The notes beneath the pieces are model-generated. The model was not told where the DNA came from, ran no database searches, and saw only the letters and a list, made by a program, of their open reading frames with translations. The translations under genes were made by a program, and so were the position numbers. From NCBI GenBank assembly GCA_030830895.1, contig JAURMC010000008.1:124001-188000 (forward strand): 64,000 nt of DNA, given 5' to 3'. Source of the DNA: Crocinitomicaceae bacterium (GTDB taxonomy: Bacteria; Bacteroidota; Bacteroidia; Flavobacteriales_D; Crocinitomicaceae). The stretch's first letter is position 1; the number at the start of each line of letters is the position of its first letter. This document shows positions 34,384 to 38,454 of this stretch, piece after piece.

Positions 34384-34968
34384 TTATTTTTTTATGTTAT
34401 TATTTTTTGAATAAAGTTCTTTGAGTTTGATCAAGGCTCTAAAGGTTTTAACTTTTGCATTATTTTCAGTTAAATCCAAAATATCCCCTATTTCTCGAAA
34501 AGATCGTTTTTCGAAAAACCGCATTTCAATAAGTTGCAAATGACTTTCTTTCAATAACGGCAAAACTTTAAGAAGAACTTCCCGTTTATGTTCAGATTCA
34601 TCAATTTGAAATTCTTCCATCACCTTACCGATTTGCATTGAATCAATGCTTACTGTTCGTCGTGCTTTTTTATCTCGAAACGATTGATATAATTCGCTCT
34701 TTGCAATGCGAAATAACCATGAAGAAAATGGAATTCCTCTATACTCATATTTAGGTAAATTAGTAATGGCCTTTATGAATACACATGAAGTAATATCATA
34801 AGCCGATTCTTCTTCGTCAACTCGCTTAAATACGTATCTAAAAATTGCCTCATGATATTTTCTATACAAGGGGGCAAAATGCTCTGGGTTGCGCTTTGCT
34901 CGTTCAATAATTACTAGTTCATCTTCTGGTTTTCCAAAGCGATCGAAATAAAGGAGAGGGGCTGACAT
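34384..34968 (-). CDS. ECF-type RNA polymerase sigma factor
   Basis: 194 residues. Region 2 spans about residues 25-100 (FAPLYRKYHEAIFRYVFKR, then PFSSWLFRIAKSELYQSFRDKK); region 4 is C-terminal (LLKESHLQLIEMRFFEKRSF, REIGDILDLTENNAKVKTFR). The target regulon is unknown. It is followed after 4 nt by the 59-residue membrane protein. The three-gene envelope operon that ends 86 bp upstream on the same strand is a candidate partner set. Confidence 0.88.
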   Translation of the reverse strand: MSAPLLYFDRFGKPEDELVIIERAKRNPEHFAPLYRKYHEAIFRYVFKRVDEEESAYDITSCVFIKAITNLPKYEYRGIPFSSWLFRIAKSELYQSFRDKKARRTVSIDSMQIGKVMEEFQIDESEHKREVLLKVLPLLKESHLQLIEMRFFEKRSFREIGDILDLTENNAKVKTFRALIKLKELYSKNNNIKK

Positions 34969-35054: not shown

Positions 35055-37145
35055 TTATAAAGAAATCCGTAATTGAATCACTAGGTCGGATTTTCGGCTT
35101 CCATTAATCTGTTCGGCTCCTGAACCAATAATAAATCTATTGTTATACAAAAACATACCGTAACGAATCCACAAATCACAATGTTTTAAAAAAGAATATC
35201 TTACCAACACATAAGCCCTATTGCCCTGATTATAATACGCTGGAACTGCAAATACATACAATGCATTGTTCTCAAATGAATATATACGTGTATCGTAGCC
35301 ATCTGTATCAAATAATGCATATCGAATTGCAAGATCTATAGGTGAACTTTTTGGTTTCCAAATGAAATCCTGTGTTAATAACATTCCCTTTTGAAATCCT
35401 TTACTCTGGCTATTAATAGTAAGAAATTCTACACGGCTTTTGAAGGTAAATGCCTCACTAATTACATAAGAAAGGTTCAATCTATAGTTACGTTGAACAA
35501 ACGCTTCAATAGGCGTTATTGCTCCTGCATATTCCGAACTATTTTTCTCTCGTAGTTGCTGCCTAAATCTGAAATAAACCTCAAATATTTTGTTCGGTTT
35601 ATACACGGGCTGAATTAAAAATTCGTGACCCATACTTGGTGCATCTACCCCAAATTTCATCCAAGGAAACTTAAATACGTCCATATATGCATTGAGACTC
35701 CATACCGGATTAAATTTCATTTTTAATCCTGCATATAATCCTTTTTCATTTTGGGTGTTACTCCCTTCTGAAAACCCAGCATTGTAAAAGGAATAAAAAT
35801 CACGCTGATAATCTCGATATATCAAACCCATACTCACTTTAGAATCAAGCGAAATTAAGGCTCCATGCATCATAGCCCAACCTGAAGTGTATGACTTAAG
35901 TTGTTCGTTAAACGCTTTAGACACCTCCCCAAACAAGGCAATATTCTTGTAATTATAGGAGTAATCAAGCCCTGTATTCAAATGATGTTGTCCACGAAAA
36001 TCAAATTGATTATAAACTTTGACGTCTTTTACATACGGCTTATCATATCCCTGATATACGCCAGATAATCCGACTTTAAAGAGCCCTCTTTTGAGGTTAA
36101 GGTTTGCACCAAATATGTTTTCGCGAAGCCCATTCATTTTGGAAATTTCTCGATTCGTACGATGCAATCCTGATAAATCGAGTGTTGAAATAAATTCCAA
36201 GTCATCCAAGGTAGAATCAGCAATTGAACTTGCGTCTACTTTTTTGCTAGAAGAAAACAAGAGTAAACCTAGATTTTTATATCCCAGCTCTATTGCTGCT
36301 CCACGCATGAATCTACTTTCATCTACCGAGGTATATGCCCTTAGTGGAATAGCCGTCCTTTTTGCCGTTGCAATATCCGCCGTTTTTCCAAATGCATAAC
36401 TTGACCAAAAACCAATTCCTTGACCGATTTGAACTTGATAATCACCTAAAGCTATACCTCGAATATATTTTCCTCCTTTAAAAAAGGCGTGAGCAGAATA
36501 AAAATCAAACCCATTTTTTTGAGCCCCTCGAAAAAACTGTTCTCCAGCGTCTTTTTCTGCGGTAATACCAACGCTAATATTCGTTTTATAAGTATACCTC
36601 CAACGGGTATATAGTCGGTCACTACTACCGTAATAATAATTATTACTAGATTGAAGTATCGAATCTGAAACTTCCTCATACCCTTTTTTTCGCTCAACCG
36701 TAGGCTGATATCGTAAAAAAACCTCATATTTTCCCTGTTCAAGAGCTTCTTTCAATGTAATATGTAAATTGTCTAATTTATCGTCTACTCGAATAAACGG
36801 TCTTACTAACTGAATAGTCTCTAAATCCCAATAGCTTAAGCTTTGAAGTTCATAAATGGAAATGAACTTCCCGAATAACTTACGATGAAGTATTAAGTCA
36901 CTGATTTGAACAGTGGTAAGCAATCCAAGTTCCTCCAATTCAAGGCCATCAGTGAAATTCAAATTAATTGGATGCTCAAAATAAAAATCTAATTGCTCGA
37001 TGACATTAGTTAAATCTAAATTCTCAGATTGAAAACGTTCAGAAATAAATTCAATGCGCTGTTGTATAATTTCAGATTTGTTTTGGGCAAGGGAGCCACT
37101 TAAACTAATTAAAATGCATCCAATAACAACTAGAAAATGCTTCAT
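35055..37145 (-). CDS. helix-hairpin-helix outer-membrane barrel protein
   Basis: 696 residues. A signal peptide (1-21, ending GSLAQ) is followed by a helical region. Within about 55-115 lies a helix-hairpin-helix repeat of the ComEA type (LNFTDGLELEELGLLTTVQI, then LHRKLFGKFISIYELQSL and DLETIQLVRPFI). The remaining ~570 residues are beta-rich, with barrel strands to the C-terminus (DLVIQLRISL). ComEA-type HhH domains bind DNA in the periplasm during uptake. Fusion to a large barrel would place such a domain at an outer-membrane pore. Start ATG 37145 gives the signal peptide and overlaps the upstream stop (ATGA). Confidence 0.75.
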   Translation of the reverse strand: MKHFLVVIGCILISLSGSLAQNKSEIIQQRIEFISERFQSENLDLTNVIEQLDFYFEHPINLNFTDGLELEELGLLTTVQISDLILHRKLFGKFISIYELQSLSYWDLETIQLVRPFIRVDDKLDNLHITLKEALEQGKYEVFLRYQPTVERKKGYEEVSDSILQSSNNYYYGSSDRLYTRWRYTYKTNISVGITAEKDAGEQFFRGAQKNGFDFYSAHAFFKGGKYIRGIALGDYQVQIGQGIGFWSSYAFGKTADIATAKRTAIPLRAYTSVDESRFMRGAAIELGYKNLGLLLFSSSKKVDASSIADSTLDDLEFISTLDLSGLHRTNREISKMNGLRENIFGANLNLKRGLFKVGLSGVYQGYDKPYVKDVKVYNQFDFRGQHHLNTGLDYSYNYKNIALFGEVSKAFNEQLKSYTSGWAMMHGALISLDSKVSMGLIYRDYQRDFYSFYNAGFSEGSNTQNEKGLYAGLKMKFNPVWSLNAYMDVFKFPWMKFGVDAPSMGHEFLIQPVYKPNKIFEVYFRFRQQLREKNSSEYAGAITPIEAFVQRNYRLNLSYVISEAFTFKSRVEFLTINSQSKGFQKGMLLTQDFIWKPKSSPIDLAIRYALFDTDGYDTRIYSFENNALYVFAVPAYYNQGNRAYVLVRYSFLKHCDLWIRYGMFLYNNRFIIGSGAEQINGSRKSDLVIQLRISL

Positions 37146-37951
37146 TTTAAACGATACGTGAATGAAACATTGGGCGACCAACCGAGCTGTTGAGTAAAGG
37201 CTGACCCGAAATCCAGGAAGTATATCCCTTTAAAAACATATCCACAGCCTGCATTAATTTCAATGGGCTGAGTGGAAAATCCAGAGCGAAAACTAAGATT
37301 TTCCATTGGAGTATATTCCAATCCTGCTTTCCCTCGAAGAGGAAAATCAACATGTTTCTCACCTTCCACACACACCAATAGTTTATTTGAAAAACTATAT
37401 GAAGACCCTATGCGCATCACTGTAGATAGCCGATCTTCTTGATACGAACTTAATTGTACCCGAGAAAAATTTACTAGGGAAAACCCAAGAAGCCATTTAT
37501 TATTTACCCGAGTTAATAGCCCCACCTCACCAGTTGCTTTAATCGCATTTCCATATCCTTGACCAATTCGGAATTGATGTAAATTCATTTGAACTCCTAA
37601 TCCAAATATCTCGGATAACCTAAGGCTGTATCCCAAGCCGGCTTTAATAGTTCTAAACTGTGTGTATCCAAAACTCTGGGCACCACCTGAAATCACCCCT
37701 TTCTTTAGTGGTAGTGCCAGGGCAACTGATTGAGTTTGAAGTTCTTTAAGCAAAAATCTGTTCTCATAGGAAAGACCAACACCAAATTTGGTAATACCTA
37801 TCAATGCTGCAGGATTATGGTGATATGCCCAAATATCCTGAAGCGTTACGGAGGCATCACCCATGCCACGTGAACGGCCACCTGCTGGAGCCCATCCTTG
37901 CGCAATCCCATATCCTGAACATAGCAGTATAATTAAAACGATTCGTTGCAT
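37142..37951 (-). CDS. PorV/PorQ-like outer-membrane barrel protein
   Basis: 269 residues. The signal peptide ends near GIAQG, then comes the family opening PAGGRSRGMGDASVTLQDIWAY and HNPAAL, shared by PorV, PorQ and related FadL-fold proteins. It is shorter than PorV or PorQ of the T9SS. It sits between a lipoprotein gene (upstream, no gap) and the HhH-barrel gene (4-nt overlap), so the three products probably form one envelope complex. It is more likely a paralogue with its own role than a T9SS core subunit. Confidence 0.7.
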   Translation of the reverse strand: MQRIVLIILLCSGYGIAQGWAPAGGRSRGMGDASVTLQDIWAYHHNPAALIGITKFGVGLSYENRFLLKELQTQSVALALPLKKGVISGGAQSFGYTQFRTIKAGLGYSLRLSEIFGLGVQMNLHQFRIGQGYGNAIKATGEVGLLTRVNNKWLLGFSLVNFSRVQLSSYQEDRLSTVMRIGSSYSFSNKLLVCVEGEKHVDFPLRGKAGLEYTPMENLSFRSGFSTQPIEINAGCGYVFKGIYFLDFGSAFTQQLGWSPNVSFTYRLK

Positions 37952-38383
37952 TTAATTGGAATTAAAACGATTACAATTTAAATATTTAAGATATCTTGAT
38001 TCTAAAAAAAACCAAGATTCCCCATGATTCGAAGATAGGGCATAAATTATTTTCTTGGTTGAATTAATTCTAGAATTTGAAGATTGGAGATCGAAGGATA
38101 ACTTAACTTTGATTTGGTGATCCTTTTGCTCAATGCTCAATATCGAATAATTGTTGATTGATTCCTCCTGATGAAGAAACAATTTCCTTAAACCAGCAGT
38201 ATCCGATAAGTATGCATCAATAAGACAAGGATGTGTTTGCGATACTTCAAGAATTGTTAATTCCTTATTATAGGCATTTTGATATTGAATGATGGCTCGA
38301 TTTAAGGATTTTTCTTGTTTAGAGGATAAAGAACATGCGAAAACGCACCAAATCGCAGAAACAATTAAAATATAAAATCTCAT
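37952..38383 (-). CDS. small lipoprotein of unknown function
   Basis: 143 residues from ATG 38383. Signal peptide with lipobox VFAC (Cys at about 17), then a helical stretch and a beta-rich part (QKDHQIKVKLSFDLQSS, TKKIIYALSSNHGESWFFLE). I do not recognise a family. It is the first gene of the lipoprotein / PorV-like barrel / HhH-barrel operon. A longer frame begins with TTG upstream, but ATG 38383 fits the -7 box placed 9 nt before it. Confidence 0.55.
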   Translation of the reverse strand: MRFYILIVSAIWCVFACSLSSKQEKSLNRAIIQYQNAYNKELTILEVSQTHPCLIDAYLSDTAGLRKLFLHQEESINNYSILSIEQKDHQIKVKLSFDLQSSNSRINSTKKIIYALSSNHGESWFFLESRYLKYLNCNRFNSN

Positions 38384-38392
38384 TAGGGATAT

Positions 38393-38400
38393 CAAAGATA
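38393..38400 (-). promoter_or_regulatory. -7 box (TATCTTTG) for the lipoprotein/HhH-barrel operon
   Basis: Exact TAnnTTTG on the minus strand, 9 nt before ATG 38383. The methylmalonyl-CoA mutase promoter lies 46 bp away on the other strand. Confidence 0.5.
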
Positions 38401-38446: not shown

Positions 38447-38454
38447 TATCTTTG
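38447..38454 (+). promoter_or_regulatory. -7 box (TATCTTTG) for the methylmalonyl-CoA mutase operon
   Basis: Exact match, 16 nt before ATG 38471. Confidence 0.5.

Follow-up and report, generated by a model that had tools for sequence, protein, structure and literature searches.

In Riemerella anatipestifer, the barrel protein RS04915, the helix-hairpin-helix (HhH) protein RS02645 and ComEC are each reported to be needed for transformation (PMC8459023). The same study places RS04920, a DUF5689 protein, among the transformation proteins, reports RS04915, which has a carboxypeptidase-regulatory domain, from Flavobacteriaceae only, and suggests, with a speculative model, that the phylum has machinery of its own (PMC8459023). 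Here we describe a locus from the same phylum, found in a stretch of 64,000 nucleotides of a Crocinitomicaceae bacterium (GenBank assembly GCA_030830895.1, contig JAURMC010000008.1, positions 124,001 to 188,000 of the forward strand; hereafter the window). Three genes at 35055–38383 on the minus strand encode a lipoprotein (P0003), a PorV-like outer-membrane barrel (P0002) and a protein in which an HhH region is joined to a large barrel (P0001, the HhH-barrel). We see an even chance that the two barrel proteins form an outer-membrane module serving ComEC-dependent DNA uptake, a reading based on the conserved gene pair, the family-level homology of the HhH region, the predicted folds, and the presence of comEC downstream in one family. 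Both the Riemerella scheme and the one considered here would thus combine ComEC with a barrel and with a protein bearing HhH motifs. How bacteria of this phylum bring DNA across their outer membrane is, to our knowledge, an unsolved problem, and none of the titles and abstracts that we found in the open-licence literature of PubMed Central describes the barrel family.

The barrel pair and its predicted folds

P0001 (35055–37145, minus strand; 696 aa with a signal peptide) comprises a ComEA-type HhH region (residues ~56–121, encoded by 36783–36980) and a barrel of ~24 strands (residues ~139–695). The protein alone retrieved neither HHH_3 nor usher nor any other family from Pfam, and single-sequence searches of NCBIfam and the PDB returned nothing useful. 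Its family is more informative: PF12836 (HHH_3) was matched by 14 of the 20 proteins in the P0001 alignment, P0001 itself not among them (E-values up to 1, the best 4e-9), and a deep relative (L147) matched the ComEA model TIGR01259 at 4.4e-13, so that the HhH assignment is made through the family and not through P0001 alone. The AlphaFold2 model, of moderate confidence (mean pLDDT 76.6), shows N-terminal helices up to residue ~118 followed by 24 strands of at least 9 residues. The three best matches of the barrel in the VIA fold comparison are ushers (Z 16.0–16.1, root-mean-square deviation (rmsd) 4.2–4.6, 373–385 residues aligned), while Foldseek ranks a chain of the Mtr complex (6r2q_B) first, followed by TonB-dependent receptors. 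The predicted barrel of P0001, with about 24 strands, is similar in size to the chaperone-usher pore (FimD/PapC), without demonstrated sequence kinship; many unrelated barrels reach Z 13–15 in the same VIA list. We do not claim kinship of P0001 to ushers or to BAM, since VIA scores of Z 13–16 are common to many barrels.

P0002 (37142–37951, minus strand; 269 aa) was modelled with higher confidence (mean pLDDT 86.8) and shows the 14-strand barrel with an N-terminal hatch that characterizes the FadL/PorV superfamily, to members of which it is matched by VIA at Z 26–33. The best of these matches are FadL (3pgr; Z 33.2, rmsd 2.0, 254 aligned) and PorV of the type IX secretion system (T9SS; Z 30.9–31.2, rmsd 2.3–2.4, 257–259 aligned), and Foldseek also identified PorV (6h3i_F and 8gl6_F, TMq 0.80). 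The hatch contains the sequence HHNPAAL, in which N46 and P47 are invariant in 58 sequences; an NPA motif at this place is a feature of the superfamily. The fold is shared as well with a chain of the BAM complex of Flavobacterium johnsoniae (9n2d_B, VIA Z 26.7), and BamG is described as a FadL-family protein (PMC12611786). P0002 differs from PorV and BamG in that it is shorter, remains below the PorV cut-offs (58.6 bits against the 90 of NCBIfam PorV_fam, and 21.3 bits against the 250 of the T9SS PorV equivalog) and has the HhH-barrel for a partner, where PorV and BamG have SprA or BamA.

The start codon of P0002 begins at the base right after the P0003 stop codon, and the start of P0001 overlaps the P0002 gene by 4 bases. 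A first-pass annotation of the window had described three exported proteins encoded without gaps on one strand, the last of them a ComEA-type HhH region joined to a barrel and accompanied by a FadL-fold partner. The open reading frames on the minus strand agree with this description, the family profile and the AlphaFold2 model support the joining of HhH region and barrel, and the model of P0002 together with its VIA and Foldseek matches bears out the FadL-fold partner. The pair is conserved well beyond the window: the PorV-like gene was recognised directly upstream of the HhH-barrel gene in 55 of 87 surveyed loci, from 28 of 43 family labels, and was not recognised at that position in the other 32.

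The same structural matches lend support to two other readings of the pair. It could be an outer-membrane transporter of another substrate, such as a lipid, a hydrophobic compound, a polysaccharide or a nutrient, with its proximity to comEC in one family accidental. FadL relatives carry hydrophobic substrates, and the match of P0002 to FadL, the Mtr-complex and TonB-dependent-receptor matches of P0001, and the phylum-wide spread of the family among variable neighbours all fit such a transporter, which we nevertheless regard as rather unlikely in view of the comEC arrangement described below. Alternatively, the pair could be a protein-export or surface-assembly module following the logic of the T9SS, in which SprA works with PorV, and would then move or anchor proteins together with PorD. 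The closeness of the P0002 fold to PorV and the ushers at the head of the VIA list point in this direction, and the distribution of T9SS components, considered further on, makes this explanation improbable.

Association with comEC

The gene-order evidence for a link with DNA uptake comes from one family, labelled f13 in our sample, of which 121 genomes were analysed. The barrel was detected at 1e-20 in 99 of them and ComEC in 117, including all 99. In 92 of the 99 barrel genomes, representing 20 of 20 genera, the gene immediately following that of the barrel, in the same orientation, is comEC, whose Competence domain starts 680–1281 nt (median 724.5) past the barrel match; the remaining seven, all from genus g154, include two with comEC within 3 kb and five with comEC elsewhere. 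At the level of open reading frames, ComEC is the next protein in 29 of the 30 best-scoring f13 loci; its distance from the barrel ranges from -4 to +62 nt in 28 of these and is 504 nt in the other, possibly owing to a late start call. The PorV-like gene precedes the barrel in 28 of the 30. Three of the downstream frames were tested and are ComEC (PF03772 at 4.7e-54 or better, together with DUF4131). The f13 HhH-barrel gene thus occupies the place just 5' of comEC that comEA has in several bacteria; one reference mentions an operon of comEA and comEC in Thermus. If this adjacency were an accident, as the transporter of another substrate would require, the chance arrangement would have been kept by 92 of 99 genomes and 20 genera, with only g154 departing from it, and the ComEA ancestry of the HhH region would be left unexplained. 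In three genomes of another f13 genus, g15 (G385, G400 and G375), the matched stretch of the comEC-adjoining barrel gene is interrupted by a stop codon, which may mean that the barrel is in decay in some members of g15.

Co-occurrence of the barrel with comEC, which the first-pass annotation had proposed as a check, mostly holds and turns out to have little power, because ComEC is nearly universal (287 of the 295 near-complete genomes in our phylum survey). The barrel is missing from all four f13 genomes that lack ComEC, a joint loss that a single deletion could explain, and a strong barrel is likewise missing from every one of the seven f47 genomes in which ComEC was not found, two of which have weak matches. 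The Fisher test of barrel against ComEC at the phylum level, with the sample from the window's class left out, gave p 5e-4, a value inflated because 7 of the 8 ComEC-less genomes belong to one family. Four draft genomes break the rule (G297, G497, G498 and G568), as the barrel is present and ComEC undetected, which would fit a transporter unconnected with DNA. In the class sample, three of the four genomes without ComEC keep the barrel (G497, G498 and G568), and a genome of 0.5 Mb is without both.

The HhH region and a separate HhH-repeat protein

The GxG hairpins of HhH motifs contact the DNA backbone. In P0001, LLT and YWD stand where its two hairpins would have GxG (residues 74–78, GLLTT, and 104–108, SYWDL, as read from the sequence), and the HhH segment has a net charge of -5, which argues against DNA binding. 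The degeneration is not confined to the window: of 138 HhH segments, just 7 and 5 have glycine at the two positions of hairpin 1, and 34 and 13 have it at those of hairpin 2, GxG being retained in the second hairpin of loci from families f33, f31, f60 and f45. P0001 is thus related to ComEA through the HhH family profile and differs from it in being joined to a large barrel and, in the lineage of the window, in having lost the GxG hairpins and become acidic. The HhH module had been seen in the first-pass annotation as a possible DNA-binding element, and in its strict form the proposal was that the HhH region provides a DNA-binding surface at the outer membrane, assisted by the lipoprotein and the PorV-like partner. 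The HHH_3 and ComEA matches of the relatives and the hairpins retained in the four families are in its favour; given the missing glycines, the acidic charge, the same degeneration in the comEC-linked proteins of f13 and a lipoprotein that is not conserved, we consider it very improbable.

A better candidate is encoded elsewhere. All 20 genomes examined, that of the window among them, encode a distinct protein in an open frame of 287–395 aa that is matched by HHH_3 two or three times; the GhG hairpin is kept in 19 of the 20 proteins, and the net charge is positive in 15, so the group is not uniformly basic. The protein of the window genome (L176, G000:C2:1150-1518) is 287 aa long, matches HHH_3 twice and has a net charge of +16 and one intact hairpin (GIG), and a counterpart was present in 19 of the 19 relatives examined. 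With an intact hairpin and positive charge, set against the degenerate region of P0001, it is this HhH-repeat protein and not P0001 that looks like a periplasmic DNA binder. It resembles RS02645 of Riemerella, to which it is likened by approximate size and HhH repeats only, and its gene is distinct from that of P0001.

Distribution of the barrel family and relation to the T9SS

A search of the 295 near-complete genomes with the family profile (E 1e-3 or better) identified HhH-barrel relatives in 238; the 22 weak matches (E above 1e-20) were dropped, which leaves strong barrels in 216 of 295, as tallied from the listing. In the class sample the barrel was found at 1e-20 in 205 of 254 genomes, and among relatives of the window P0001 was matched in 38 of 40 genomes and in 27 of the 27 near-complete ones. 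Family f27 has the barrel in 65 of 65 sampled genomes and ComEC in 64. We take f27 for the Chlorobiaceae (green sulfur bacteria), since the FMO protein was found in 8 of 8 f27 genomes tested; it was not found in one f26 and one f33 genome. Chlorobaculum tepidum has been modified by natural transformation (PMC3842273), and together with the f27 barrel this is an independent hint of a role in DNA uptake, the C. tepidum orthologue of the barrel being putative. Family f16, at the other extreme, possesses ComEC; none of its 29 genomes has a strong barrel, and there is a single weak match (G121, 1.4e-5). A piece of SprA from one f16 genome scored 890 bits over 517 aa against SprA of F. johnsoniae (a piece from family f15 scored 275 bits), and on this score f16 is taken for the Flavobacteriaceae. 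As strong HhH-barrels are missing from f16, and RS04915 is reported from Flavobacteriaceae only, the two barrels may replace each other between lineages. Carried further, this suggests that the HhH-barrel and its PorV-type partner form an outer-membrane channel of a new kind for DNA import that replaces the pilus/secretin route in most Bacteroidota and in green sulfur bacteria, with an RS04915-type barrel substituting in Flavobacteriaceae, a generalization that we offer as tentative and somewhat doubtful.

The explanation by protein export receives support from the genomic neighbourhood. The porD gene of the T9SS, identified from one tested member (NCBIfam T9SS_PorD, 229 bits), occurs within the locus in 27 of the 87 surveyed loci, from 17 families, and lies mostly directly upstream of the pair in divergent orientation. 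Several loci outside the window's class (L145, L211, L224 and others) share a recurring block composed of a HEAT-repeat/cyclophilin protein, porD and the pair of PorV-like and HhH-barrel genes. Dependence on the T9SS is contradicted by genomes of both kinds. SprA was found in none of the 65 f27 genomes, all of which have the barrel, and PorD in none of the 7 of them that were tested. These 65 account for the 69 genomes without SprA together with G041, G267, G275 and G306, and in the first three of the latter the barrel is present and neither SprA nor PorD was found; G041 is a single-contig f13 genome in which the barrel adjoins comEC. Conversely, the f16 genomes (29) and the f15 genomes (6) have SprA and no strong barrel. 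Membership in the T9SS as a requirement of the barrel was accordingly ruled out.

The lipoprotein and the surroundings of the trio

P0003 (37952–38383, minus strand; 143 aa), the product of the operon's first gene, is predicted to be exported as a lipoprotein, and its lipobox cysteine (Cys17) is unchanged throughout an alignment of 26 sequences, its own included. P0003 is assigned to no family; its Pfam search gave just one TPM match below the cut-off and a weaker row at chance level. A similar lipoprotein was recognised in 7 of the 87 loci, each from the window's own family, which does not support the lipoprotein as a dedicated component of the core, as had been suggested; P0003 diverges fast, so some copies may have escaped recognition. 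Because the PorV-like gene is widespread and the lipoprotein was recognised in one family of the survey only, the barrel pair is regarded as the core and the lipoprotein as a local addition. Among the first 110 loci, each fetched as a relative of the barrel, P0002-like frames were present in 102 and P0003-like frames in 43, an association of the trio that is more than chance. The named loci nearest to P0001 are labelled mostly as Flavobacteriales or Crocinitomicaceae metagenome-assembled genomes (MAGs).

A candidate -7 promoter element, TATCTTTG, is located at 38393–38400 on the minus strand, 9 bases 5' of the start codon of the lipoprotein gene, and matches TANNTTTG, the consensus of the Bacteroidota -7 element. 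A second TATCTTTG lies on the plus strand at 38447–38454, 16 bases 5' of a start codon; the two copies, one per strand, are situated between the divergent genes of the lipoprotein and methylmalonyl-CoA mutase. Motifs of this type are not enriched across the whole window (64 found, 82 expected), so that position is what supports TATCTTTG as a promoter element, and a scan for sigma-70 promoters revealed no excess. Downstream of the trio, on the same strand, there is a gene of the sigma-70 family (34384–34968, regions 2 and 4 identified by Pfam), which is found at the same place in three genomes of the same genus (L242–L244) and in two named MAG loci (L031 and L043). The trio and the sigma-70-family gene may share regulation.

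A possible module for DNA uptake and its significance

If the two barrels do serve ComEC-dependent uptake, the ~24-strand barrel would be a gated pore that lets DNA into the periplasm, and the PorV-like barrel would dock laterally on it, as PorV does on SprA. The HhH region, presumably descended from a DNA-binding ComEA domain, might act as a plug or a periplasmic dock and would no longer clamp DNA in the lineage of the window. The basic HhH-repeat protein would be the periplasmic receiver of the DNA and its carrier to ComEC, and the lipoprotein would be a late accessory specific to its lineage. Of the DNA-handling complex surmised in the first-pass annotation, this retains a possible role in uptake, supported by the order PorV-like gene, HhH-barrel gene and comEC in f13, and abandons DNA binding by the HhH region and the dedicated lipoprotein.

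Several observations weigh against such a module. Adjacency to comEC was seen in f13 only: among 121 scanned immediate neighbours PF03772 was matched in 4, all from that family, and, with 25 of the 113 families of the neighbours listed, a rarer competence gene may also adjoin the pair. The presence of ComEC does not prove competence, and ComEC occurs without a strong barrel in f16, f15 and 18 of the 121 f13 genomes, just as the barrel occurs in the four drafts where ComEC went undetected. ComEC was not detected in the window's own assembly either, a draft of 1.6 Mb that is 63.6% complete, and this incompleteness can explain its absence. The HhH region of P0001 is degenerate and acidic, its counterparts adjoining comEC are equally degenerate, and the frequent company of porD would suit a function in secretion. 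Finally, one study found R. columbina competent and F. johnsoniae not (PMC7965970).

The order of genes for two outer-membrane barrels and ComEC names testable candidates for the outer-membrane step of DNA uptake, and these candidates concern a part of the phylum that is larger than, and different from, the one to which Riemerella belongs. If the prediction is true, a function will have been gained for a barrel family matched in 238 of the 295 sampled genomes. Natural transformation itself is already known; within it, an outer-membrane module built on barrels and linked to ComEC would be new or, if proven, even a channel of a new kind.

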